Below, in pieces: positions 34,429 through 62,235 of a stretch of DNA of 64,000 nt (positions within the stretch are counted from its first letter, which is position 1; the number at the start of each line of letters is the position of its first letter). The notes under the pieces were generated by a model, which was given only the letters and a program-made list of their open reading frames with translations, was not told the DNA's origin and searched no databases. This DNA comes from Streptomyces atratus. Lineage in GTDB: Bacteria > Actinomycetota > Actinomycetes > Streptomycetales > Streptomycetaceae. The DNA is taken from the NCBI RefSeq assembly GCF_900119365.1, contig NZ_FPJO01000003.1:62001-126000 (forward strand), written 5' to 3'. The position numbers were made by a program, and so were the translations under genes.

Positions 34429-35877
34429 ATGCTGACAATCCTCGGCTTCGCCATGATCGCGACCTTCCTGGTCCTGATCATGATGAAGAAGATGTCGCCG
34501 ATCGCGGCGTTGGTCCTGATCCCCGCGCTGTTCTGCGTCGCCGTCGGGCAGGGCGCGAAGCTCGGTGACTACGTCATCGAAGGCGTCGGCAATCTCGCCC
34601 CGACCGCCGCGATGCTGATGTTCGCCATCGTCTACTTCGGCGTGATGATCGACGTCGGCCTCTTCGACCCGATCGTGCGGGGCATCCTGCGCTTCTGCAA
34701 GGCCGACCCGATGCGGATCGTCGTCGGTACGGCCGTGCTCGCCGCCATCGTCTCCCTCGACGGTGACGGCTCCACCACCTTCATGATCACCGTCTCGGCG
34801 ATGTATCCGCTCTACAAGCGCCTCAAGATGAGCCTGGTCGTGATGACCGGTGTCGCCGCCACGGCGAACGGCGTCATGAACACCCTTCCCTGGGGCGGTC
34901 CCACCGCCCGCGCCGCCACCGCGCTCAAGCTGGACGCGGGCGACATCTTCGTCCCGATGATCCCGGCGCTCGGCATCGGGCTGGTCGCGGTCCTGCTCCT
35001 CGCCGTCGTGCTGGGCCGGCGCGAGCGCAAGCGGCTCGGCATGCTCAGCCTCGACGAGGTGCTGGCCACCGGAACGGCCGCCGAGCCGGAGACCGTTCTC
35101 CTCGGAGCGGGCGGCGGTGGCGGCGACCGTACCCGCAAGAACTCCGGCGGAGCCGGTACCGGAACGGACGGCGACGCGGCGCAGAACGCGGGAGCGGACG
35201 CGGACAGGGACGGGGACGGGGACGGGGACGAGGGCTTCAAGGGGCTGGACCCGAACCGGGCCACCCTGCGCCCCAGGCTCTACTGGTTCAACGCCGGCCT
35301 CACCGTCGCCCTGCTCACCGCGATGATCATGGAACTGATGCCGATCCCGGTGCTCTTCCTGCTCGGCGCGGCCCTCGCCCTCACGGTCAACTTCCCCCAC
35401 ATGCCCGAGCAGCGGGCCCGGATCGCCGCCCACGCCGACAACGTCCTCAACGTCTCCGGCATGGTCTTCGCGGCCGCCGTCTTCACCGGCGTCCTCTCCG
35501 GCACGGGCATGGTCGAGCACATGGCCGACTGGCTCGTCGGCGCGATCCCCGACGGCATGGGCCCGCACATGGCGGTCGTCACCGGCATCCTCAGCATCCC
35601 GCTGACGTACTTCATGTCCAACGACGGCTTCTACTTCGGCGTCGTCCCGGTGCTCGCCGAGGCGGGTGCCGCCCACGGTGTCTCCCCGCTGGAGATCGCC
35701 CGCGCCTCCCTGGTCGGCCAGCCCCTGCACATGTCCTCCCCGCTGGTCCCGGCCGTCTACGTGCTGGTCGGCATGGCGAAGGTCGAATTCGGCGACCACA
35801 CCAGGTTCACCGTCAAGTGGGCCGCGCTCACCTCGCTGGTGGTCCTGTGCGCCGGGCTCCTGTTCGGCATCATCTGA
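34429..35877 (+). CDS. CitMHS-family metal-citrate:H+ symporter
   Basis: 482 aa, about eleven transmembrane helices. Conserved family stretches include SPIAALVLIPALFCV, YFGVMIDVGLFDP, VSLDGDGSTTFMITVSAMYPLYKRL, TANGVMNTLPWGGPTAR and YFMSNDGFYFGVVPVLAE. These transporters move citrate complexed with a divalent metal or Fe(III); from memory the S. coelicolor member SCO1710 prefers Fe- or Ca-citrate. A 60-residue hydrophilic Gly/Asp-rich loop (about 218-280) separates the two halves and contains a short tandem repeat. Monocistronic; no two-component regulator is adjacent. Confidence 0.92.
   Translation: MLTILGFAMIATFLVLIMMKKMSPIAALVLIPALFCVAVGQGAKLGDYVIEGVGNLAPTAAMLMFAIVYFGVMIDVGLFDPIVRGILRFCKADPMRIVVGTAVLAAIVSLDGDGSTTFMITVSAMYPLYKRLKMSLVVMTGVAATANGVMNTLPWGGPTARAATALKLDAGDIFVPMIPALGIGLVAVLLLAVVLGRRERKRLGMLSLDEVLATGTAAEPETVLLGAGGGGGDRTRKNSGGAGTGTDGDAAQNAGADADRDGDGDGDEGFKGLDPNRATLRPRLYWFNAGLTVALLTAMIMELMPIPVLFLLGAALALTVNFPHMPEQRARIAAHADNVLNVSGMVFAAAVFTGVLSGTGMVEHMADWLVGAIPDGMGPHMAVVTGILSIPLTYFMSNDGFYFGVVPVLAEAGAAHGVSPLEIARASLVGQPLHMSSPLVPAVYVLVGMAKVEFGDHTRFTVKWAALTSLVVLCAGLLFGII
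35208..35231 (+). repeat. GGACGG tandem repeat in citrate transporter loop
   Basis: Three GGACGG units and a degenerate fourth encode alternating Asp-Gly in the central cytoplasmic loop. The unit is a multiple of three, so copy-number slippage would change loop length without a frameshift. Confidence 0.7.
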
Positions 35878-35912
35878 CCGGGCGCACCGTCCAGGAGCCC
35901 GGCAGGAGCGGG

Positions 35913-36079
35913 CTGCTGCGCCTCGTCATCGCCTTCGCCTTCGCCTTCGCGCAGGGGGTGTCTCCGCGACCGACATCCTCACCGCGTACCCGCCCGTCGT
36001 CGGCGAACACCGGGGCATCGCCCCCGCCACCATCGGACTGCTGCTCAGCCTGCGAGCCGCCGCGGCCATCGCCTGCCGC
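35913..36079 (+). pseudogene. Frameshifted N-terminal remnant of an MFS transporter
   Basis: Two adjacent frames read as parts of one membrane-transporter start: LLRLVIAFAFAFAQGV in frame from 35913, then after a +1 shift near 35955, ATDILTAYPPVVGEHRGIAP and TIGLLLSLRAAAAIACR up to 36079. This resembles helices 1 and 2 of a major-facilitator protein. The rest is missing; the SoxR-type promoter of the next gene follows within 15 bp. There is no usable start. Best read as the stub left by a deletion. Confidence 0.5.
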
Positions 36080-36092
36080 CGGAACCCGGCCG

Positions 36093-36123
36093 TTGACCTC
36101 AAGTCCACTGGAGGTCGTACGTT
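36093..36123 (+). promoter_or_regulatory. SoxR box in a 19-bp-spacer promoter
   Basis: TTGACC (36093-36098), an exact 19-bp spacer and TACGTT (36118-36123) form the stretched promoter used by MerR-family activators. The spacer region carries CCTCAAGTCCACTGGAGG (36097-36114), 15 of 18 identical to the classical SoxR box CCTCAAGTTAACTTGAGG. Transcription should start at about 36130, the A of the ABC gene ATG. Confidence 0.85.
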
Positions 36124-36129
36124 CCTCCC

Positions 36130-38031
36130 ATGAGCATGGAAACCACGGCGTGGACACAGCTCCACAACGTCATGAACGCGCAAGCGGACCGACGCCCCTT
36201 CGACCGGAACACCCTGCGGCGCATCGCCGCCTTCGCCCGCCCGCACCGGCGCCGCGTCGCCCTCTTCCTGATCCTGAGCGTGGCGACGGCACTGCTCGCG
36301 GTCGCCACCCCCGTCCTCGCCGGCCGCGTCGTGAACGCGATCGTGAGCGGCAAGGAGTCGGGCACCGTCACCCGGCTGTCCCTCCTCATCGCCGTGATCG
36401 CCGTCGCGGAGGCCGCACTGGGCCTGGTCAGCCGCTGGCTCTCGGCCAATCTCGGCGAGGGCCTGATCCTCGATCTGCGCACCGCCGTCTTCGACCATGT
36501 GCAGCGCATGCCGGTCGCCTTCTTCACCCGGACCCGCACCGGCGCGCTCGTCAGCCGCCTCAACAACGACGTCATCGGGGCCCAGCGAGCCTTCAGCAAC
36601 ACGCTGTCCGGGGTCGTCAGCAATGTCGTGACGCTGCTGCTCACCCTCGGTGTCATGCTCTCCATCTCCTGGCAGATCACCGTGCTCGCGCTGGTGCTGC
36701 TGCCAGTGTTCGTGCTGCCGGCCCGGCGGATGGGCACCCGGATGGCGCGGCTCCAGCGGGAGGCCGCCGCCCACAACGCCGCGATGGGCACCCGGATGAC
36801 CGAGCGCTTCTCCGCCCCCGGCGCCACCCTGATCAAGCTCTTCGGCCGCCCCGCCGACGAGTCCGCCGAATTCGCCGTCAGAGCCGGCCGGGTGCGCGAC
36901 ATCGGCGTACGCACGGCCATGGCCCAGTCCGCGTTCATCACCGCCCTCACCCTCGTGTCCGCGCTGGCCCTCGCCCTGGTCTACGGGCTCGGCGGGTTCT
37001 ACGCACTGCGCGGGCAGCTCGACGCGGGCGCGGTCGTGGCCCTCGCCCTCCTGCTGACCCGGCTGTACGCACCGCTCACCGCACTCGCCGGGGCGCGCGT
37101 CGAGGTGATGAGCGCACTCGTCAGCTTCGAGCGGGTCTTCGAGGTCCTCGATCTCAAGCCGCTCATCGACCAGAAGCCGGACGCGCGGACGGTCCCGGAC
37201 GGACCGGTGTCCGTCGAGTTCGACCGGGTGCGGTTCGGCTACCCGTCCGCCGACAAGGTCTCGCTCGCCTCGCTGGAGGATGTCGCGAGCCTCGACACCC
37301 GCGGCGGCGGAGAAGTGCTGCGCGGAGTCTCCTTCCGCGCCGAGCCCGGCCAGACCGTGGCACTCGTCGGCTCCTCCGGCGCGGGCAAGTCGACCATCGC
37401 CCAACTGCTGCCGCGGCTGTACGACACGGACGAGGGCGCGGTACGCATCGGCGGCGTCGACGTACGCGACCTGACCGCCGACACCCTGCGCGACACCCTC
37501 GGCATGGTCACCCAGGACGGCCACCTCTTCCACGAATCGGTGCGCGCCAACCTGCTGCTCGCCCGCCCCGACGCCGCCGAGGAGGACCTCTGGGACGCGC
37601 TGCGCCGCGCCCGCCTGGACGGTCTCGTCGCCTCGCTGCCCGACGGGCTCGACACCGTCGTCGGTGAACGCGGCTACCGGCTCTCCGGCGGCGAACGCCA
37701 GCGCCTGACCATCGCCCGGCTGCTCCTGGCCCGCCAGCGCGTCGTCATCCTCGACGAGGCCACCGCCCACCTCGACAACACCTCCGAGGCGGCCGTCCAG
37801 GAAGCACTCGCCGAGGCGCTCGCCGGTCGCACCGCGGTCGTGATCGCCCACCGGCTCTCCACGGTACGGACCGCCGACCTCATCCTGGTCGTGGAGGACG
37901 GGCGGATCGTGCAGCGGGGCACGCACGACGAACTCCTCGCGGCGGGCGGCCGGTACGAGGAGCTGTACCGCACCCAGTTCGAGAACCCCGGTGCGCAGCA
38001 CGGGGAACTCGACCGGCAGCCCCTGGCGTGA
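36130..38031 (+). CDS. ABC exporter (fused membrane and ATPase domains), SoxR-regulated
   Basis: 633 aa. A six-helix type I exporter domain spans residues 25-310 (VALFLILSVATALLAVATPVLAGRVVN onward; FFTRTRTGALVSRLNNDV coupling helix). The ATPase domain has Walker A GSSGAGKST near 414-422, signature LSGGERQR near 517, Walker B VILDEATAHLD near 539 and the AHRLST His switch. It works as a homodimer or with another half-transporter to expel drugs or lipids. The start at 36130 coincides with the predicted transcript start, so it is leaderless. The SoxR box predicts induction by redox-active compounds, suggesting a pump for quinone or phenazine-like metabolites (inference). Confidence 0.92.
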   Translation: MSMETTAWTQLHNVMNAQADRRPFDRNTLRRIAAFARPHRRRVALFLILSVATALLAVATPVLAGRVVNAIVSGKESGTVTRLSLLIAVIAVAEAALGLVSRWLSANLGEGLILDLRTAVFDHVQRMPVAFFTRTRTGALVSRLNNDVIGAQRAFSNTLSGVVSNVVTLLLTLGVMLSISWQITVLALVLLPVFVLPARRMGTRMARLQREAAAHNAAMGTRMTERFSAPGATLIKLFGRPADESAEFAVRAGRVRDIGVRTAMAQSAFITALTLVSALALALVYGLGGFYALRGQLDAGAVVALALLLTRLYAPLTALAGARVEVMSALVSFERVFEVLDLKPLIDQKPDARTVPDGPVSVEFDRVRFGYPSADKVSLASLEDVASLDTRGGGEVLRGVSFRAEPGQTVALVGSSGAGKSTIAQLLPRLYDTDEGAVRIGGVDVRDLTADTLRDTLGMVTQDGHLFHESVRANLLLARPDAAEEDLWDALRRARLDGLVASLPDGLDTVVGERGYRLSGGERQRLTIARLLLARQRVVILDEATAHLDNTSEAAVQEALAEALAGRTAVVIAHRLSTVRTADLILVVEDGRIVQRGTHDELLAAGGRYEELYRTQFENPGAQHGELDRQPLA

Positions 38032-38051
38032 CGGGCGTCTCTGGCGCCTGA

Positions 38052-38070
38052 AAACTAACAGCGCTAGTTT
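38052..38070. promoter_or_regulatory. TetR operator copy 1, upstream of aldehyde dehydrogenase
   Basis: AAACTAACAGCGCTAGTTT has 6-bp inverted arms and matches the palindrome at 41784-41799 in 13 of 16 core bases (ACTARCAGYGCTARTT). It lies 47 bp before the aldehyde dehydrogenase start. Confidence 0.65.
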
Positions 38071-38116
38071 GGATTGCGGACGACCCCGTCCGCAACGGTG
38101 ACCGGGAGGAACAGCG

Positions 38117-39505
38117 ATGAAGGCCCACGACGGCATGTACATCGACGGGGCCTGGCGGCCCGCCGCGGGACGGGACACGATCGCGGTGGTGAATCCGGTG
38201 GACGAACAGGTCATCGCCGAGGTCCCGGCGGGCACCGTCGAGGACGTGGACGCCGCGGTACGGGCCGCCCGCGCCGCGCTCCCCGCCTGGGCGGCCACCG
38301 CGCCCGCCGAGCGGGCCGCGCGGATCGCCGCCCTGCGTGACGTGCTCGTCGCCCGCAAGGACGAGATCGCCGAATCCGTCACCGCCGAACTCGGCGCGCC
38401 GCTGCCCTTCTCGCAGGCGGTGCACGCGGGCGTGCCGATCCTGGTGGCCGGTTCGTACGCCGAGCTCGCCGCCTCGTACGCCTTCGAGGAGAAGGTCGGC
38501 AACTCCACCGTGTACGCCGAGCCGGTCGGCGTCGTCGGCGCGATCACCCCGTGGAACTACCCGCTGCACCAGATCGTCGCCAAGGTCGCCCCCGCGCTCG
38601 CGGCGGGCTGCACGGTCGTCCTCAAGCCCGCCGAGGACACCCCGCTGACCGCCCAGCTCTTCGCCGAGGCGGTCCATGAAGCGGGCGTCCCCGCAGGCGT
38701 GTTCAACCTGGTCACCGGCCTCGGCCCGGTCGCCGGACAGGCCCTGGCCGAGCACGAAGGCGTCGACCTGGTCTCGTTCACCGGCTCCACCGCCGTCGGC
38801 AGGCGGATCGGCGCCACGGCCGGCGCAGCCGTCAAACGCGTCGCCCTCGAACTGGGCGGCAAGTCCGCCAACGTCATCCTGCCGAGCGCGGACCTCGCCA
38901 AGGCCGTCGCCGTCGGCGTCGCCAACGTCATGGGCAACTCCGGCCAGACGTGCAGCGCCTGGACCCGGATGCTGGTGCACACCTCACAGTACGACGAGGC
39001 GGTCGCGCTCGCCGCGGAGGCGGCCGCCAAGTACGGCGACCGCATCGGCCCGCTCGTCAACGCCAAGCAGCACGCGCGGGTGCGCGGCTACATCGAGAAG
39101 GGTGTGGCGCAGGGCGCCCGCCTCGTCGCGGGCGGCCCCGAAGCCCCGCGCGAACAGGGCTACTACGTCAGCCCCACCGTGTTCGCCGATGTCACCCCGG
39201 AGATGACCATCGCCCAGGAGGAGATCTTCGGCCCCGTCGTCTCGCTCATCCGCTACGAGGACGAGGACGACGCCCTGCGCATCGCCAACGGCACCGTGTA
39301 CGGCCTCGCGGGCGCGGTCTGGGCGGGCGACGAGGCGGAGGCGGTGGCCTTCGCCCGGCGGATGGACACCGGTCAGGTCGACATCAACGGCGGCCGGTTC
39401 AACCCGCTCGCCCCGTTCGGCGGCTACAAGCAGTCCGGCGTCGGCCGCGAACTCGGCTCCCACGGGCTCGCGGAGTACCTCCAGACCAAGTCCCTCCAGT
39501 TCTGA
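38117..39505 (+). CDS. NAD(P)-dependent aldehyde dehydrogenase
   Basis: 462 aa, ATG with GGGAGG 8 bp upstream. Complete active site: TPWNYPLHQ with the substrate-orienting Asn, KPAEDTP cofactor lysine region, FTGSTAVG, general base Glu in LELGGKS and nucleophilic Cys in NSGQTCSAW. The [12 protein letters not shown] motif is also intact. It oxidises an aldehyde to the acid, consistent with the alcohol dehydrogenase gene 51 bp downstream supplying the aldehyde. The pair should be repressed by the TetR at 41079-41753, whose operator-like sequence lies in its promoter. Confidence 0.93.
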
Positions 39506-39556
39506 CCGCCCCGCACCGCCCCGTTTCCCCGCTGCCGATCGTCAAGGAGCCTGTTC

Positions 39557-40639
39557 GTGGTCCGCGCCGCCGTACTGCCCGCCGTCAAAGCTCCCCTGGA
39601 GATCACCGACATCGAACTCCCGGAGCCCGGCCCCGGCCGGGTGAGGGTCGCCCTCGCCGCCGCCGGCGTCTGCCACTCCGACCTCTCGCTGTCCGACGGC
39701 ACCATGCGGGTGCCCGTCCCCGCCGTCCTCGGCCATGAGGGCGCGGGCACCGTCGTCGCGGTCGGCGAGGGCGTCACCCATGTCGCGCCGGGCGACGGCG
39801 TCGTCCTCAACTGGGCTCCCTCCTGCGGCAGTTGTCATGCCTGCGCGCTGGGCGAGGTCTGGCTGTGCGCCAATGCCCTGAACGGAGCGGGCGCCGTGCA
39901 CGCCCGGCGCGCCGACGGCGGCGGCGAGCTGCACCCCGGTCTCAACGTCGCCGCGTTCGCCGAGGAGACGGTGGTCCCGGCGGGCTGCGTCCTGCCCGTC
40001 CCGGGCGGCATCCCGCTCACCGACGCCGCCCTCCTGGGCTGTGCGGTCCTCACCGGATACGGCGCCGTGCACCACTCGGCGCGGCTGCGCGAGGGCGAGA
40101 CGGTGGCCGTGTTCGGCGCCGGGGGAGTGGGGCTGGCCGCGCTCCAGGCCGCCCGTATCGCCGGAGCCTCGCGCATCGTCGCGGTCGACGTCTCCCCGCA
40201 GAAGGAGGAGCTGGCCCGCCGGGCGGGCGCCACCGACTACGTGGTCGCCTCGGAGAACACCACCCGCGAGATCCGGGCCCTCACGGACAAGCAGGGGGTG
40301 GACGCCGCCATCGAGTGCGTGGGCCGCGCCACCACCATCCGCACCGCCTGGGAGTCGACCCGCCGCGGCGGCCGGACCACGGTCGTCGGCATCGGCGGCA
40401 AGGACCAGCAGGTCACCTTCAACGCCCTGGAGATCTTCCACTGGGGACGCACCCTCTCCGGCTGCGTCTACGGCAACTCCGACCCCGCGCGGGACCTGCC
40501 GGTGCTGGCCGCCCATGTCAGGGAGGGGTGGCTCGACCTCGGCGCCCTGGTGACCGAGCGCATCACCCTCGACGGCATCCCGGCCGCGTTCGAGAACATG
40601 ATCGCGGGGAAGGGAGGGCGGGCTCTGGTGATCTTCTAG
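39557..40639 (+). CDS. Zinc-dependent alcohol dehydrogenase
   Basis: 360 aa, GTG 39557 with AAGGAG 8 bp upstream. Catalytic-zinc ligands appear in GVCHSD and GHEGAG; the structural-zinc lobe is complete (C-x2-C-x2-C-x7-C in CGSCHACALGEVWLC). The Rossmann motif is GAGGVGLAALQAARIAGAS with a following VDVSPQK acidic residue, favouring NAD. It resembles class III/aryl-type alcohol dehydrogenases. Operon partner of the aldehyde dehydrogenase. Its last 77 bp overlap the 3' end of the ArsR-EamA chimera on the other strand. Confidence 0.92.
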   Translation: MVRAAVLPAVKAPLEITDIELPEPGPGRVRVALAAAGVCHSDLSLSDGTMRVPVPAVLGHEGAGTVVAVGEGVTHVAPGDGVVLNWAPSCGSCHACALGEVWLCANALNGAGAVHARRADGGGELHPGLNVAAFAEETVVPAGCVLPVPGGIPLTDAALLGCAVLTGYGAVHHSARLREGETVAVFGAGGVGLAALQAARIAGASRIVAVDVSPQKEELARRAGATDYVVASENTTREIRALTDKQGVDAAIECVGRATTIRTAWESTRRGGRTTVVGIGGKDQQVTFNALEIFHWGRTLSGCVYGNSDPARDLPVLAAHVREGWLDLGALVTERITLDGIPAAFENMIAGKGGRALVIF

Positions 40640-41063
40640 GGCGCGTCCGGGAGACCGCCACCCCGGCCAGGCAGAGCAGCCCTCCGGCGACCGCGAGCGG
40701 CGCGGGCACCTCGTCCAGCAGCAGCCAGGACATCAGCACCACCAGGGCCGGTACCGCGTATGTGGTGGCGCCCATCCGCCCCGCCAGGTTCTCGACGAGG
40801 TGCGCGATCCGTTCGTCGGCCAGCCGCAGATAGCGGTGGCGGCCCTGCCGCTCCTCGGCCAGCAGCCCGCCCGCGACGAGCTTGCCGAGGTGTTCGCTGG
40901 CGGTCGACGGCGCCACGGAGGCGTACCGGGCCAGTTCCCCGGCGGTCCAGGCCCGGCCGTCGAGCAGGGCCAGGCAGAAGGCGGCGCGGGTCGCGTCGGC
41001 GAGGAGCGCGGCCAGGGCGGCCAGCCGGGGTGCGGCCGGGTCGGGGTGTGCCATGCGTGCCAT
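40563..41063 (-). pseudogene. ArsR regulator fused to the last helices of an EamA transporter
   Basis: A single 166-codon frame reads as two unrelated pieces. Residues 1-92 are an ArsR-type winged helix (LADATRAAFCLALLDGRAWTAGELARYASVAPSTASEHLGKLVAGGLLAEERQGRHRYLRL). From about residue 99, ATTYAVPALVVLMSWLLLDE and the following LAVAGGLLCLAGVAVSR are the final two helices of an EamA/DMT permease. The join matches an in-frame deletion between a neighbouring regulator and transporter. The tail then runs into the alcohol dehydrogenase 3' end. The DNA-binding half may still be functional, perhaps membrane-tethered, but decay is more likely. Confidence 0.65.
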
Positions 41064-41078
41064 GGGAACCAGGATGCG

Positions 41079-41753
41079 TCAGGAACGCTTCGGTGCCGGC
41101 CGAACCGTTCCGCCCGGTGACAGGAGTTCGTACTGCAGCGAGAGGCCGTCGACCAGGGCCCGCAGCCCGGTCTCGAAGGCCCCCTCGTCGACCTTCTGGC
41201 GCCGTTCGGCCAGCAGATGGGCCTGGCCGAGGTGCGGGTAGTCGGCGGGGTCGTACGCCGTCTCGTCGTCGACGAAGCCGCGGGCGAAGGAGCCCAGTGC
41301 CGAACCGGTGATGAAGTACCGCATCAGGGCCCCGATGTACGTCGCCTGGGCGGGCGGCCAGCCGGCCCGGACCATCGCGCCGAACACCGCGTCGGCGACC
41401 CGGAGACCGGCCGGCCTGCGGCCCGGCCCCTGGGCGAGCACCGGAACGATGTGCGGGTGCTCGGTGAGCGCCGCACGATAGGAGACGGCCCAGTCGTGCA
41501 GGGCGGCACGCCAGTCGCGGGTGTCCGGCTCGTCGAACATCGACAGATCGACCTGCGCGGACACGGCGTCCGCGACCGCGTCCAGGATCTCGTCCTTGTT
41601 GCGGAAGTGGTTGTAGAGCGAGGGTCCGCTGACCCCGAGTTCGGCCGCGAGCCGACGGGTGGACACGGCGTCGAGCCCCTCGGAGTCCACGAGTGCGCTC
41701 GCCGCCTCGACGATGCGGTCTCTGCTGAGGAGGGGCTTGCGCGGTCGGGCCAT
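41079..41753 (-). CDS. TetR regulator of aldehyde/acyl-CoA dehydrogenase genes
   Basis: 224 aa from MARPRK (ATG 41753). DNA-binding domain LLSRDRIVEAASALVDSEGLDAVSTRRLAAELGVSGPSLYNHFRNKDEIL, then a TetR_C domain (EHPHIVPVLAQGPGRRPAGL...YIGALMRYFITGSALGSFARGF). A -10-like TACTAT on the minus strand (41766-41761) places the transcript start at or beside the ATG, so it is probably leaderless. The palindrome at 41784 overlaps its promoter, and a second copy precedes the aldehyde dehydrogenase operon, predicting autoregulation and control of both flanking units. Confidence 0.9.
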   Translation of the reverse strand: MARPRKPLLSRDRIVEAASALVDSEGLDAVSTRRLAAELGVSGPSLYNHFRNKDEILDAVADAVSAQVDLSMFDEPDTRDWRAALHDWAVSYRAALTEHPHIVPVLAQGPGRRPAGLRVADAVFGAMVRAGWPPAQATYIGALMRYFITGSALGSFARGFVDDETAYDPADYPHLGQAHLLAERRQKVDEGAFETGLRALVDGLSLQYELLSPGGTVRPAPKRS

Positions 41754-41783
41754 GCGGCACATAGTAGGGCCTGCAAGCGAAAA

Positions 41784-41799
41784 ACTAGCAGTGCTAATT
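41784..41799. promoter_or_regulatory. TetR operator copy 2, tetR/acyl-CoA dehydrogenase intergenic
   Basis: ACTAGCAGTGCTAATT, the partner of the element at 38054-38069 (13 of 16 identical). It sits between the divergent tetR (41753) and acyl-CoA dehydrogenase (41819) starts, 20 bp before the latter. Confidence 0.65.
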
Positions 41800-41818
41800 A
41801 AAAGTGGGGAGTCGAAGG

Positions 41819-42970
41819 ATGAACCTGGAGCTCGGCGAGGAGCAGGAAGCCGTCCGGCAGCTCGCCAAGGACTTCGTCGCCCGCGAGATCGCCCCGCACG
41901 TCGTGGAGTGGGACCGGGCCGAGAGCGTCGACAAGTCGATCGTGAAGAAGCTGGGCTCCGTCGGCTTCCTCGGGCTGACCGTCCCCGAGGAGTACGGCGG
42001 CTCGGGCGGCGATCACCTCGCGTACTGCCTGGTCACCGAGGAGCTCGGGCGCGGCGACTCCTCGGTCCGCGGCATCGTCTCCGTCTCCCTCGGCCTCGTC
42101 GCCAAGACCATCGCCGCCTGGGGTGACGAGAAGCAGAAGCGGCACTGGCTGCCCGGGCTCACCGCGGGCGAGGTGATCGGCTGCTTCGGCCTCACCGAGC
42201 CCGGCACCGGCTCGGACGCCGGGAACCTGACGACGAGGGCCGTCCGGGACGGTGACAACTACGTCGTCAACGGCAGCAAGATGTTCATCACCAACGGCAC
42301 CTGGGCCGATGTGGTGCTGCTTTTCGCCCGCACCGACGACACCCCCGGCCACAAGGGCATATCCGCCTTCCTGGTCCCCACCGACACCCCCGGCCTCAGC
42401 CGCCGCACCATCCACGGCAAGCTCGGCCTGCGCGGCCAGGCCACCGCCGAGGTGGTCCTGGAGGACGTCCGGGTGCCCGCGTCGGCGCTCCTGGGCCCGG
42501 AGGGCAAGGGCTTCGCCATCGCCATGTCCGCCCTGGCCAAGGGGCGGATGTCGGTCGCGGCCGGCTGTGTCGGCATCGCACAGGCCGCCCTCGACGCCGC
42601 CGTGGGCTACGCGGGCGAGCGCGAGCAGTTCGGCAAGTCCATCGCGAGCCACCAGCTCGTCCAGGAGCTCATCAGCGACATCTCCGTGGACGTCGACGCC
42701 GCCCGGCTGCTGACCTGGCGGGTGGCGGACCTCATCGACCGCGGCGAGGACTTCGCCACCGCCGCCTCCAAGGCCAAGCTCTTCGCCTCCGAAGCCGCCG
42801 TCCGCGCCGCCAGCAACGCGCTCCAGGTCTTCGGCGGCTACGGCTGCATCGACGAGTATCCCGTCGGCAAGCTGCTGCGCGACGCCCGTGTGATGACGCT
42901 GTACGAGGGCACCAGCCAGATCCAGAAGCTGATCATCGGCCGCGCGCTGACGGGGGTCTCCGCCTTCTGA
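41819..42970 (+). CDS. Acyl-CoA dehydrogenase
   Basis: 383 aa from MNLELGEEQ (ATG 41819, GGGGAG 7 bp upstream). FAD-binding motifs CFGLTEPGTGSDAG and MFITNGTWADV, the middle strand domain and the C-terminal helices (REQFGKSIASHQLVQELI) are complete. The catalytic Glu is in DARVMTLYEGTSQIQ, typical of short-chain and branched-chain acyl-CoA dehydrogenases. It introduces a 2,3-double bond in acyl-CoA and passes electrons to ETF. Predicted to share TetR control with the aldehyde dehydrogenase operon, suggesting one degradative route from alcohol through aldehyde and acid to acyl-CoA (inference). Confidence 0.93.
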   Translation: MNLELGEEQEAVRQLAKDFVAREIAPHVVEWDRAESVDKSIVKKLGSVGFLGLTVPEEYGGSGGDHLAYCLVTEELGRGDSSVRGIVSVSLGLVAKTIAAWGDEKQKRHWLPGLTAGEVIGCFGLTEPGTGSDAGNLTTRAVRDGDNYVVNGSKMFITNGTWADVVLLFARTDDTPGHKGISAFLVPTDTPGLSRRTIHGKLGLRGQATAEVVLEDVRVPASALLGPEGKGFAIAMSALAKGRMSVAAGCVGIAQAALDAAVGYAGEREQFGKSIASHQLVQELISDISVDVDAARLLTWRVADLIDRGEDFATAASKAKLFASEAAVRAASNALQVFGGYGCIDEYPVGKLLRDARVMTLYEGTSQIQKLIIGRALTGVSAF

Positions 42971-43058
42971 CCCGCACCGCCGCTCGAACGGACGTCTGAG
43001 TACCGGCTGAGTACCGGAGCGGATGTGGCACACGCCACGTCGGCCGATGCTGGGTGCC

Positions 43059-43349
43059 ATGAGTGAGACAGCATCGGTCAAGCAGCAGAGCACCGCGGCC
43101 TTCTACGGCCAGGCCGTCGCCTCCTTCGGGGTGGCGATCGGCGCCGTGGCTCTCGGTATCTACTTCCTCGACGCCGACGCCTGGGTCCGCGGATTCCTCG
43201 CGATCGGCGTCCTCTACCTCGTCACCTCCTGCTTCACCCTGGCCAAGGTCATCCGTGACCGCCAGGAGGCGGGACAGATCGTCAGCCGGGTCGACCAGGC
43301 CCGGCTGGAGAAGATCCTCGCCGAGCACGACCCCTTCCAGAAGCTCTGA
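43059..43349 (+). CDS. YiaA/YiaB-type two-helix membrane protein
   Basis: 96 aa from MSETASVKQ (ATG 43059). Two hydrophobic helices (AFYGQAVASFGVAIGAVALGIYFL and WVRGFLAIGVLYLVTSCFTLAKVIRDRQE) with short loops give the yiaA/B two-helix fold of the inner membrane. Function is unknown in the family. It lies between the acyl-CoA dehydrogenase and a TetR gene, 88 bp after the former, and is probably transcribed separately. Confidence 0.8.
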   Translation: MSETASVKQQSTAAFYGQAVASFGVAIGAVALGIYFLDADAWVRGFLAIGVLYLVTSCFTLAKVIRDRQEAGQIVSRVDQARLEKILAEHDPFQKL

Positions 43350-43368
43350 CGGTCCCGCCGGACGGGCC

Positions 43369-43384
43369 CTAAGCGCTTGCTCAG
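43369..43384. promoter_or_regulatory. TetR operator copy 1 (CTAAGCGCTTGCTCAG)
   Basis: CTAAGCGCTTGCTCAG follows the palindrome CTnAGCnnnnGCTnAG. It lies 46 bp before the TetR start at 43431 and recurs base for base at 44584-44599. Confidence 0.78.
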
Positions 43385-43430
43385 GTTCGGGGTATGGTGT
43401 TCGTCCTGCTGACGAGAGGGGCGAGTGACG

Positions 43431-44054
43431 ATGAGCACGGCGGAGGAGACCGACGGCGACAGCGCGCCGTGGGCCGAGGTGACGCCCGAGGCGGCCCGGC
43501 GGCTGCTCGTCGCCGCCGTCGACGCCTTCGCCGAGCGCGGGTACCACGCCACCACCACCCGCGACATCGCGGGCCGGGCGGGGATGAGTCCCGCCGCGCT
43601 CTACATCCACTACAGGACGAAGGAAGAGCTGCTCCACCGGATCAGCAGGATCGGCCACGACCGCGCCCTGTTCGTCCTGGAGGCCGCCGCCGACGGCGGG
43701 GGCACGGCGGCCGAGCGGCTGGCCGAGGCCGTACGGTCCTTCGTCCGCTGGCACGCCGAGCGGCACACCACCGCCCGCGTGGTCCAGTACGAGCTCGACG
43801 CCCTCGGCGAGGAGCACCGCGCCGAGATCGTCGAGCTGCGCCGCAGGAGCGACGCGGTGGTGCGCCGGATCATCGGTGAGGGTGTGCGGGCGGGGGAGTT
43901 CGACGTCCCCGACGTCCCCGGCACCACGCTCGCGGTGCTCTCGCTCTGCATCGACGTGGCGCGCTGGTTCAACGCGCAGGGCAGCCGGACGCCGGACGAG
44001 GTCGGCGAACTCTACGCCGACCTCGTGCTGCGCATGGTCGCCGCCAAGCGGTAG
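43431..44054 (+). CDS. TetR regulator (autoregulated, controls maoC)
   Basis: 207 aa from MSTAEET (ATG 43431, GAGGGG 9 bp upstream; GTG 43425 is less well placed). DNA-binding domain LLVAAVDAFAERGYHATTTRDIAGRAGMSPAALYIHYRTKEELLHRIS, followed by a KstR2/FadR-like C-terminal domain (RHTTARVVQYELDALGEEHRAEIVELRRR). The 16-bp palindrome in its promoter recurs in front of the convergent MaoC gene. Acyl-CoA or CoA-thioester ligands are typical of this TetR group (family knowledge). Confidence 0.9.
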   Translation: MSTAEETDGDSAPWAEVTPEAARRLLVAAVDAFAERGYHATTTRDIAGRAGMSPAALYIHYRTKEELLHRISRIGHDRALFVLEAAADGGGTAAERLAEAVRSFVRWHAERHTTARVVQYELDALGEEHRAEIVELRRRSDAVVRRIIGEGVRAGEFDVPDVPGTTLAVLSLCIDVARWFNAQGSRTPDEVGELYADLVLRMVAAKR

Positions 44055-44072
44055 CGGCGGCGGTCCGCGTCG

Positions 44073-44534
44073 TCAGAAGTAGTAGCGGGACACCGACTCG
44101 GCCACGCACACCGGCTTGTCGCCGCCCTCGCGCTCGACCGTGACGGCGGCGGTGACCTGCACCCCGCCCCCGGCCTCCTCGACGCTCTTCAGGACGGCCG
44201 AGGCGCGCAGCCGTGAGCCCACGGGCACGGTGGACGGGAAACGGACCTTGTTCGTCCCGTAGTTGATGCCCATCTTCATGCCCTCGACCCGCATGATCTG
44301 CGGTACGAGCGCCGGCAGCAGCGAGAGCGTGAGATAGCCGTGGGCGATGGTCCTGCCGAACGGCCCGGCGGCGGCCCGCTCCGGGTCCACATGGATCCAC
44401 TGGTGGTCGCCGGTGGCCTCGGCGAAGAGGTCGATCCTCTTCTGGTCGACCTCCAGCCAGTCGCTGTGCCCCAGCTGCTCGCCCACCCCGTCGCTCAGCT
44501 CCTGCGCGGACGTGAAGATCCTCGGCTCTGCCAT
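44073..44534 (-). CDS. MaoC-family enoyl-CoA hydratase
   Basis: 153 aa from MAEPRIFTS (ATG 44534). Hot-dog fold with the hydratase-2 signature FAEATGDHQWIHVDPERAA and AHGYLTLSLLP; the catalytic Asp/His pair is in this motif. It hydrates (R)-specific enoyl-CoA. A longer upstream frame exists but runs through the soxR gene and is a shadow. The 16-bp operator shared with the neighbouring TetR lies 50 bp before the start, so it is the likely target gene. Convergent with tetR, divergent from soxR. Confidence 0.9.
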   Translation of the reverse strand: MAEPRIFTSAQELSDGVGEQLGHSDWLEVDQKRIDLFAEATGDHQWIHVDPERAAAGPFGRTIAHGYLTLSLLPALVPQIMRVEGMKMGINYGTNKVRFPSTVPVGSRLRASAVLKSVEEAGGGVQVTAAVTVEREGGDKPVCVAESVSRYYF

Positions 44535-44583
44535 GTCCCTGGTCCCTGCCCTTCCCGCTCCGGTCCATCCTCCGTCGCGCTGT

Positions 44584-44599
44584 CTAAGCGCTTGCTCAG
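44584..44599. promoter_or_regulatory. TetR operator copy 2 (CTAAGCGCTTGCTCAG)
   Basis: Exact 16-bp copy of the element at 43369-43384, between the divergent maoC (44534) and soxR (44667) starts. A role in repressing maoC is likely; an effect on soxR is possible but the site lies 68 bp from it. Confidence 0.78.
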
Positions 44600-44666
44600 C
44601 ATGGTTGGCGGGTGCGTTCCTGTCAACGGCGGACCGGCCGGAGGGCGGGCCAGTAGGGTTGGAGGG

Positions 44667-45140
44667 GTGCCCCAGATCCCACAGACACTCCATGAACTCA
44701 CGGTCGGACAGCTTTCCGCGCGCAGCGGCGCCGCCGTTTCCGCCCTGCACTTCTACGAGGCCAAGGGCCTGATCAGCAGCCGCCGCACCAGTGGCAACCA
44801 GCGCCGCTACAGCAGGGACGCGCTGCGCAGGGTCGCGTTCGTCCGTGCGGCGCAGCGGGTCGGCATCCCGCTCGCCACCATCCGGGACGCCCTCGCCGAA
44901 CTCCCCGAGGAGCGCACCCCGAACCGCGAGGACTGGGCACGGCTCTCCGCGGCCTGGCGCTCCGAACTGGACGACCGCATCGAGCAGTTGGGGCGGCTGC
45001 GGGACCATCTCACCGACTGCATCGGCTGTGGCTGTCTGTCGTTGGGGAACTGTGTGCTCTCCAACCCGAACGATGTCTCGGGCCGGCGGATCAGCGGCTC
45101 GCGCCTGATGCCGGAGCGCCCGCCGGCGGAGCGCGCGTAG
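44667..45140 (+). CDS. soxR: Redox-sensing MerR-family activator SoxR
   Basis: 157 aa, GTG 44667. MerR helix-turn-helix (LTVGQLSARSGAAVSALHFYEAKGLISSRRTSGNQRRY), a dimerisation helix and the [2Fe-2S] cysteine cluster CIGCGCLSLGNC near residues 115-126 (C-x2-C-x-C-x5-C) make the identity firm. In streptomycetes SoxR is activated by redox-active secondary metabolites rather than superoxide (known). A -10-like TAGGGT (44654-44659) puts transcription start at the GTG, so it may be leaderless. A near-consensus SoxR box precedes the ABC exporter at 36130 in this window. Confidence 0.95.
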   Translation: MPQIPQTLHELTVGQLSARSGAAVSALHFYEAKGLISSRRTSGNQRRYSRDALRRVAFVRAAQRVGIPLATIRDALAELPEERTPNREDWARLSAAWRSELDDRIEQLGRLRDHLTDCIGCGCLSLGNCVLSNPNDVSGRRISGSRLMPERPPAERA

Positions 45141-61923: not shown

Positions 61924-62235
61924 TCAGAACAGCATGGCCGCGGCGAACACCGCGAGCGCCACCGTGCACGCCGCCGCGGTCAGCGCACCGCGTGCCGACA
62001 GCGGTCGCGGCCGGGCGGTCCCCATCCCGAGCACCCGCAGATGCGCCACCCACAGAAACCCCAGCCAGGCCAGCGCGCTCAGTGACACCGCCACGATCGC
62101 GGCCGGGCCCGCCCCGCCGTGCAGCGCCTGCTTGACCGCCAGCAGCGCCACCACCGTGCACGACAGCGTCGTACGCCGCCAGGCCAGCCGGGTCCGCTCG
62201 GGCTGAAGTCCGGGGTCGCGCCCCGCGGTGGTCAC
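61924..62235 (-). CDS. DUF202-type small membrane protein
   Basis: 103 aa from GTG 62235 in a GTGA overlap with the upstream DUF202 gene. Begins with the DUF202 motif QPERTRLAWRRTTLSC and has three hydrophobic helices (VVALLAVKQAL, AAIVAVSLSALAWLGFLWVA, LTAAACTVALAVFAAAMLF). Function unknown. The tandem DUF202 pair probably forms one membrane complex. Confidence 0.85.
   Translation of the reverse strand: MTTAGRDPGLQPERTRLAWRRTTLSCTVVALLAVKQALHGGAGPAAIVAVSLSALAWLGFLWVAHLRVLGMGTARPRPLSARGALTAAACTVALAVFAAAMLF

Follow-up and report, generated by a model that had tools for sequence, protein, structure and literature searches.

A SoxR-type box in the promoter of a predicted leaderless ABC exporter, a likely EcaA orthologue, in Streptomyces atratus

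Within a 64,000-nucleotide (nt) stretch of Streptomyces atratus DNA (positions 62,001 to 126,000 of contig NZ_FPJO01000003.1; hereafter the window), a gene for an ATP-binding cassette (ABC) exporter is preceded by a SoxR-type box in the 19-base-pair (bp) spacer of its promoter. We consider it very probable (about 0.9) that this exporter is an orthologue of EcaA whose promoter is activated by oxidized SoxR, as the box predicts, and whose mRNA is likely leaderless, beginning at the ATG. The initial annotation had predicted that the exporter belongs to the SoxR regulon, and this prediction is strongly supported both by the genome comparisons described below and by what has been published on EcaA/SCO7008, its likely orthologue (PMC4146615).

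Promoter and SoxR-type box

Direct reading of the sequence confirmed the annotated promoter TTGACC-N19-TACGTT with its SoxR-type box at 36093-36123. The over-long spacer carries a dyad between the -35 and -10 elements, as is found in targets of the SoxR regulon, and six bases separate TACGTT from the exporter ATG at 36130. The box had been described as centred in the spacer; it does lie within the promoter, but its centre (36105.5) is 2.5 bp upstream of the spacer centre (36108). The coordinates of all features are collected in Table 1.

The 18-mer CCTCAAGTCCACTGGAGG differs from the pattern CCTCAAGTNNACTTGAGG at one position. When up to three mismatches were allowed, it was the sole match in the window (shuffled sequences gave a mean of 0.04). 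In the genome-wide scan that the initial annotation had proposed, across the 8.5-Mb assembly, the exporter site is the best CCTCAAGTNNACTTGAGG match with its one mismatch, followed by four other sites with two or three. A reversed-CCTCAAGTNNACTTGAGG control gave 12 sites per strand at up to three mismatches genome-wide. Using the longer pattern TTGACCTCAAN6TTGAGGTYNTA at the same threshold, three sites were found in the genome versus none in the reversed control, the exporter site being the best of them, while with the shorter TTGACCTCAAN6TTGAGGT it tied with two others at one mismatch (eight matches, one in the control). The exporter site has one mismatch to the 24-mer; among 1985 300-nt stretches drawn at random from the rest of the window, the best site never had fewer than eight.

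Table 1. Positions of the promoter elements, exporter and soxR features in the window
Feature	Position	Strand	Basis
-35 element TTGACC	36093-36098	+	direct sequence reading
SoxR-type box CCTCAAGTCCACTGGAGG (dyad), predicted SoxR operator	36097-36114	+	sequence reading, pattern scans, conservation
19-bp spacer, -35 to -10	36099-36117	+	sequence reading; same register in 80/80 boxes
-10 element TACGTT	36118-36123	+	direct sequence reading
ABC exporter (half-transporter, membrane domain + ATPase), likely EcaA orthologue	36130-38031	+	633-aa open reading frame
soxR, redox-sensing MerR-family activator	44667-45140	+	GTG start; TIGR01950
SoxR cysteine cluster CIGCGCLSLGNC (CX2CXCX5C, predicted [2Fe-2S] ligand set)	45018-45053	+	

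Conservation among exporter relatives

The exporter relatives used for comparison were the best 80 of at least 583 obtained from a scan of species genomes, and are thus the closest ones. A box lies upstream of the exporter in 79 of these 80 loci, the exception being that of Streptacidiphilus jeojiense (L028). Register was counted over 80 boxes, those of the 79 loci and of the window. All 80 have the TTGA of the -35 element, bases that belonged to the string used for picking the boxes; all 80 also have TA at positions 1-2 and T at position 6 of the -10 element at the same spacing, and the -10 element was not used for picking. Two adjacent distances from box to ATG account for 72 boxes (71 relatives and the window); in the other eight the distance is longer. 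Between the window and S. gelaticus, the segment from the -35 element to the ATG is identical at 39 of 40 positions versus 27 of 60 in the bases preceding it. In the family sample described below, four exporter matches at 53-62% identity were left out as likely paralogues, and the box is absent from all four (9-11 mismatches).

Identity of the exporter

Pfam domains PF00664 and PF00005 are fused in the exporter, as expected for an ABC exporter orthologous to EcaA, and its closest solved structures are P-glycoprotein-type exporters, followed by TM_0288. In S. coelicolor, SCO7008/ecaA was identified as a SoxR-dependent ABC transporter gene by RNA sequencing and quantitative reverse-transcription PCR, and SoxR binds each of the five known target promoters directly (PMC4146615). 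In the same report, ecaA is given as present in all 55 Streptomyces surveyed (100%), and a soxbox commonly lies no more than 1 kb away. The window exporter is likely the orthologue of EcaA (SCO7008); no record named SCO7008 occurred among 120 proteins listed of 7843 found, nor among the 80 relative loci. Of the clusters preceded by a box in the genus survey described below, this exporter group (24 of 88 boxes) alone consists of ABC exporters. Since the exporter is very probably EcaA, a published SoxR target, the core of the circuit is already known. It is plausible that the predicted cargo is a redox-active metabolite.

Among the 24 Streptomyces genomes hand-picked for the exporter search in the family sample described below (15 candidates scored in each), seven had no EcaA-like exporter at E <= 1e-150, and two of these seven were also without soxR. 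These figures contrast with the 100% of 55 reported in 2014.

Presence of the box and of soxR across genomes

The soxR gene of the window scores 226-228 bits on TIGR01950 (cut-off 116.9) and is the only one of 18 matches in the genome above the cut-off. The CX2CXCX5C arrangement of CIGCGCLSLGNC is the [2Fe-2S] motif of SoxR (PMC4146615). The claim of a bona fide soxR with its cysteine cluster 8.5 kb from the exporter was therefore upheld by both the score and the motif.

Among the 80 named loci, 58 (8 + 50) had their genomes checked for soxR, 22 lying outside the check. The box is present in all 55 genomes with soxR above the cut-off. Of the three without it, L028 has no box while L044 and L054 have one. 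In a family sample, which overlaps in part with the named genomes, 297 genomes were scored for soxR (13 candidates each) and 276 were above the cut-off. The exporter was searched for in 80 hand-picked family genomes (79 plus G006, the genome of L044), among them all 21 sub-cut-off genomes, and was found at 77% identity or more in 29. A box-like site precedes it in all 23 of the soxR-bearing exporter genomes of this sample (two to seven mismatches to the 24-mer), the seven mismatches of G051 being close to the random floor of eight.

Four genomes, G037, G026 (that of L028), G034 and G010, have kept the exporter with neither soxR nor box (11-12 mismatches). The absence of soxR in these four held when all candidates were scored, the best being 33-37% identical. 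In G034 and G010 (loci L115 and L116) the GAGGTTCTAC right half-site and the start-fused -10 element survive, and the left half and the -35 element are gone. The four box-less exporter genes fall into two separate clades on the exporter tree. A search of the genus of G026 found the exporter in four of 14 genomes, the same four as before, and added no new case.

Taken over both sets, seven genomes lack an intact soxR, four of them without the box and three with it. A one-sided Fisher test of 55/55 versus 3/7 gave 6e-5, a value uncorrected for descent among seven genomes that are not independent. Such a pattern would be expected if the operator decays once its regulator is lost, the decay having yet to occur in three genomes.

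SoxR-type boxes elsewhere in the genome and genus

The home genome also has boxes before transketolase-like, flavin reductase-like and antibiotic-type monooxygenase-like genes, which probably makes the exporter part of a small regulon. Box-bearing genes reported earlier include SAV_1623 (transketolase), SCO2478 (flavoprotein reductase) and SCO1909/ecaB (monooxygenase) (PMC4146615); the home genes were paired with these by cluster and by the Pfam matches of cluster representatives rather than by direct alignment. An exporter has also been mentioned as a SoxR target (PMC5288332), and the SoxR regulon has been recovered from transcriptomes (PMC11538686).

The pattern TTGACCTCAAN6TTGAGGTNNTA, at up to two mismatches, has matches in all of 41 Streptomyces genomes, the reversed control in one of them. 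From among the matches listed, a set of 88 boxes was assembled from 29 loci (the window's own excluded), 55 sites with at most one mismatch and four home sites; one duplicate was left out, and the other listed two-mismatch sites lie outside the set. That SoxR, rather than another MerR protein, uses each of these 88 boxes is assumed from their sequence. Clustering of the downstream proteins gave 24 exporters, 16 zinc-type oxidoreductases, 14 flavin reductases, nine winged-helix-like proteins, six transketolase-like proteins, four NmrA/epimerase proteins, four monooxygenases and 11 others.

The nine small proteins judged winged-helix-like by eye (L190, L199, L206, L210, L216, L219, L230, L241 and L258) form a cluster outside the six-gene S. 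coelicolor regulon, and the one representative tested had no Pfam match.

Leaderless layout

The -10 element lies 6-7 bases from the start codon and no Shine-Dalgarno sequence precedes it, an arrangement expected of a leaderless gene. We scored GGAG, GAGG or AGGA before the start as Shine-Dalgarno-like bases. With L028 left out, such bases occur in none of the 71 exporter loci in which promoter and start codon are fused versus all eight of the leadered ones. The leader class has changed at least four times on the exporter tree.

Start-codon spacing was also examined across all 88 boxes. Counted from the first base of the -35 element, 45 of them have an ATG in frame at 36-39 bases (nine at 37, 35 at 38 and one at 39), and three out-of-frame ATGs occur in the same range. 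The other four-base bins from 28 to 75 contain zero to five ATGs, except for 15 at 44-47, which by eye are mostly the Met3 codon of the exporter, and nine at 68-71. A further 10 ATGs fall in bin 76-79 and 19 in bin 80-83, where leadered starts and internal codons are mixed. When GTG was counted too, 46 of the 88 boxes were fused. The fused layout depends on the gene family: it was found in 6/6 transketolase-like genes, 10/14 flavin reductases, 17/24 members of the exporter cluster and 0/16 zinc-type oxidoreductases.

Together, the Shine-Dalgarno counts, the family counts and the tree indicate that the fused promoter is the common state in the relatives examined, and that leaders with a ribosome site occur in few lineages. 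The tight layout of box, promoter and ATG thus predicts that the exporter mRNA is likely leaderless, starting at A36130. This agrees with the start site at the ATG proposed in the initial annotation, to which the spacing in relatives and the 0/71 count lend strong support.

Alternative explanations

Several observations weigh against the SoxR-activated, leaderless EcaA orthologue proposed here. A simple sigma-70 scan, which accepts spacers of 16-18 bp only, gives no promoter at the site. Three genomes without an intact soxR have the box: no soxR was found for L044 and L054, and in G201 (L146 / L172) soxR apparently carries a frame-breaking internal deletion. Recent loss of soxR or assembly gaps could explain these boxes. 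On the tree, the box losses are two separate events, and with three independent pairs on starred branches, or four on all branches, p lies between 0.5 and 1; with only two separate losses the tree-corrected test of co-loss is underpowered. Over the 88 boxes of all families, fused and leadered genes differ less clearly in Shine-Dalgarno-like bases (8/44 versus 19/37), seven boxes having been dropped that had no in-frame ATG in range. Orthology with SCO7008 is inferred, and Table 4 of the 2014 report lists ecaA as missing in S. venezuelae despite the 100% survey (PMC4146615). The home genome, finally, has 17 further TIGR01950 matches below the cut-off, whose products could bind similar boxes.

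This last point, together with the three genomes that keep the box, would suit a circuit in which the box serves a different MerR-family regulator whose recognition helix is similar, and SoxR is not the main activator. We regard such a regulator as distinctly improbable, because none of the 17 reaches the cut-off, all 55 named and 23 sampled soxR-bearing exporter genomes have a box or box-like site, four soxR-less genomes have none, and ecaA of S. coelicolor is under SoxR control (PMC4146615). Less far-fetched, though still unlikely, is that SoxR regulates the gene through a leadered mRNA, either from a transcription start further upstream or with translation from a later in-frame ATG (Met3, 36136). 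Eight of the 80 boxes do have a longer distance to the ATG, and the in-frame ATG is only six bases after the first. However, the spacing from the -10 element to the ATG suits a start at A36130, all 71 fused relatives are without Shine-Dalgarno-like bases, and, whether fused or leadered, the genes are similar to the relatives from the same first codon onwards. A box that arose by chance and has no function is hardly credible: three-mismatch sites do arise by chance, as the reversed control demonstrates, but the conservation from -35 element to ATG beside diverged upstream DNA, and the box in 79 of 80 loci, argue strongly otherwise.

The initial annotation had further described a closed SoxR circuit. 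This part was not sustained, as soxR has no box of its own (the best 24-mer in the 500 bases upstream has 11 mismatches) and lies near the exporter in just one of the 80 relatives, S. gelaticus, when the locus flanks were searched, 16 of these loci being shorter than 20 kb. We therefore rejected both a conserved soxR-exporter module and autoregulation of soxR. A physically linked, self-regulating module is very improbable in spite of the 8.5 kb between the two genes in the window and their proximity in S. gelaticus; in S. scabiei, the exporter and soxR are at about 1.37 and 8.04 Mb. Most likely, the closeness of soxR and exporter in the window is a lineage-specific accident of gene order.

Gene neighbourhood

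The soxR gene may itself be leaderless: TAGGGT is followed by seven bases and the GTG (window 44654-44669), and this TAGGNT-N7-GTG layout is present in seven of eight soxR loci, the home genome included, L102 having no match to the motif. The soxR of G201 adjoins a MaoC-like neighbour, as in the window.

Downstream of the exporter, genes for an aldehyde and an alcohol dehydrogenase (38117-40639) begin 86 bp past its end on the same strand. An operon of the three was rejected, close matches being found in S. gelaticus only among the 80 loci. The aldehyde dehydrogenase has a 97% match there, and its other seven of eight matches are 33-46% identical; the alcohol dehydrogenase has a 97% match in S. 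gelaticus and one at 40% in a further locus. No terminator-like site was found in 35850-38300, so read-through into the dehydrogenase genes may occur. Just upstream of the box lie a CitMHS-type transporter gene (34429-35877), for which the S. gelaticus locus has no match, and, by eye, an MFS-like fragment split over two frames at about 35915-36080.

Discussion

In the mechanism we propose, a SoxR dimer would bind at the predicted operator (36097-36114), and redox-active metabolites would oxidize its [2Fe-2S] cluster. Oxidized SoxR would then untwist the over-long 19-bp spacer, allowing RNA polymerase to use TTGACC and TACGTT. Transcription would begin at A36130, the transcript would be translated without a Shine-Dalgarno site, and the pump may remove the inducing or a related small molecule.

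Circuits of this kind are known; less familiar is that, in several genes of the regulon, operator and promoter are fused to the start codon. In earlier mapping of S. coelicolor transcripts, the mRNAs from 21% of the primary start sites were leaderless, with AUG preferred, and the main text of that report names neither SoxR nor SCO7008 (PMC4895711). We found no report of leaderless transcripts in the Streptomyces SoxR regulon, judging by titles and the beginnings of abstracts in a search that mostly left subscription journals outside. We suggest tentatively, at somewhat less than even odds, that much of the Streptomyces SoxR response is hard-wired to leaderless translation, with operator, 19-bp promoter and start codon forming a fixed 37-38-base cassette before the exporter, the flavin reductase and the transketolase-like gene, and with the zinc-type oxidoreductase arm leadered in all 16 cases seen. 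If this is true, exposure to a redox-active antibiotic would induce messages that are translated as leaderless mRNAs. Fusion of operator and start codon is a positional constraint, and offers a cheap test of leaderless preference in the redox stress responses of antibiotic producers. The analysis recovered a published antibiotic-sensing export circuit independently from raw sequence, and adds natural soxR-less genomes from which the operator has gone.

The soxS promoter of E. coli has a 19-bp spacer and a dyad box that shares the final two bases of the -35 element, and in both respects the window promoter resembles it. The target in E. coli is a second regulator, whereas that in the window is a pump with a predicted leaderless mRNA. 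In P. aeruginosa, the SoxR regulon consists of two transporters and one monooxygenase, which are induced during the organism's own phenazine production (PMC4146615); the likeness here is that SoxR acts directly on transporter genes and a monooxygenase gene. The closest counterpart is EcaA (SCO7008) of S. coelicolor, likewise an ABC exporter with a SoxR box upstream. The two differ in gene order: soxR is 8.5 kb from the exporter in the window, whereas SCO7008 and soxR (SCO1697) are far apart in S. coelicolor by locus number.

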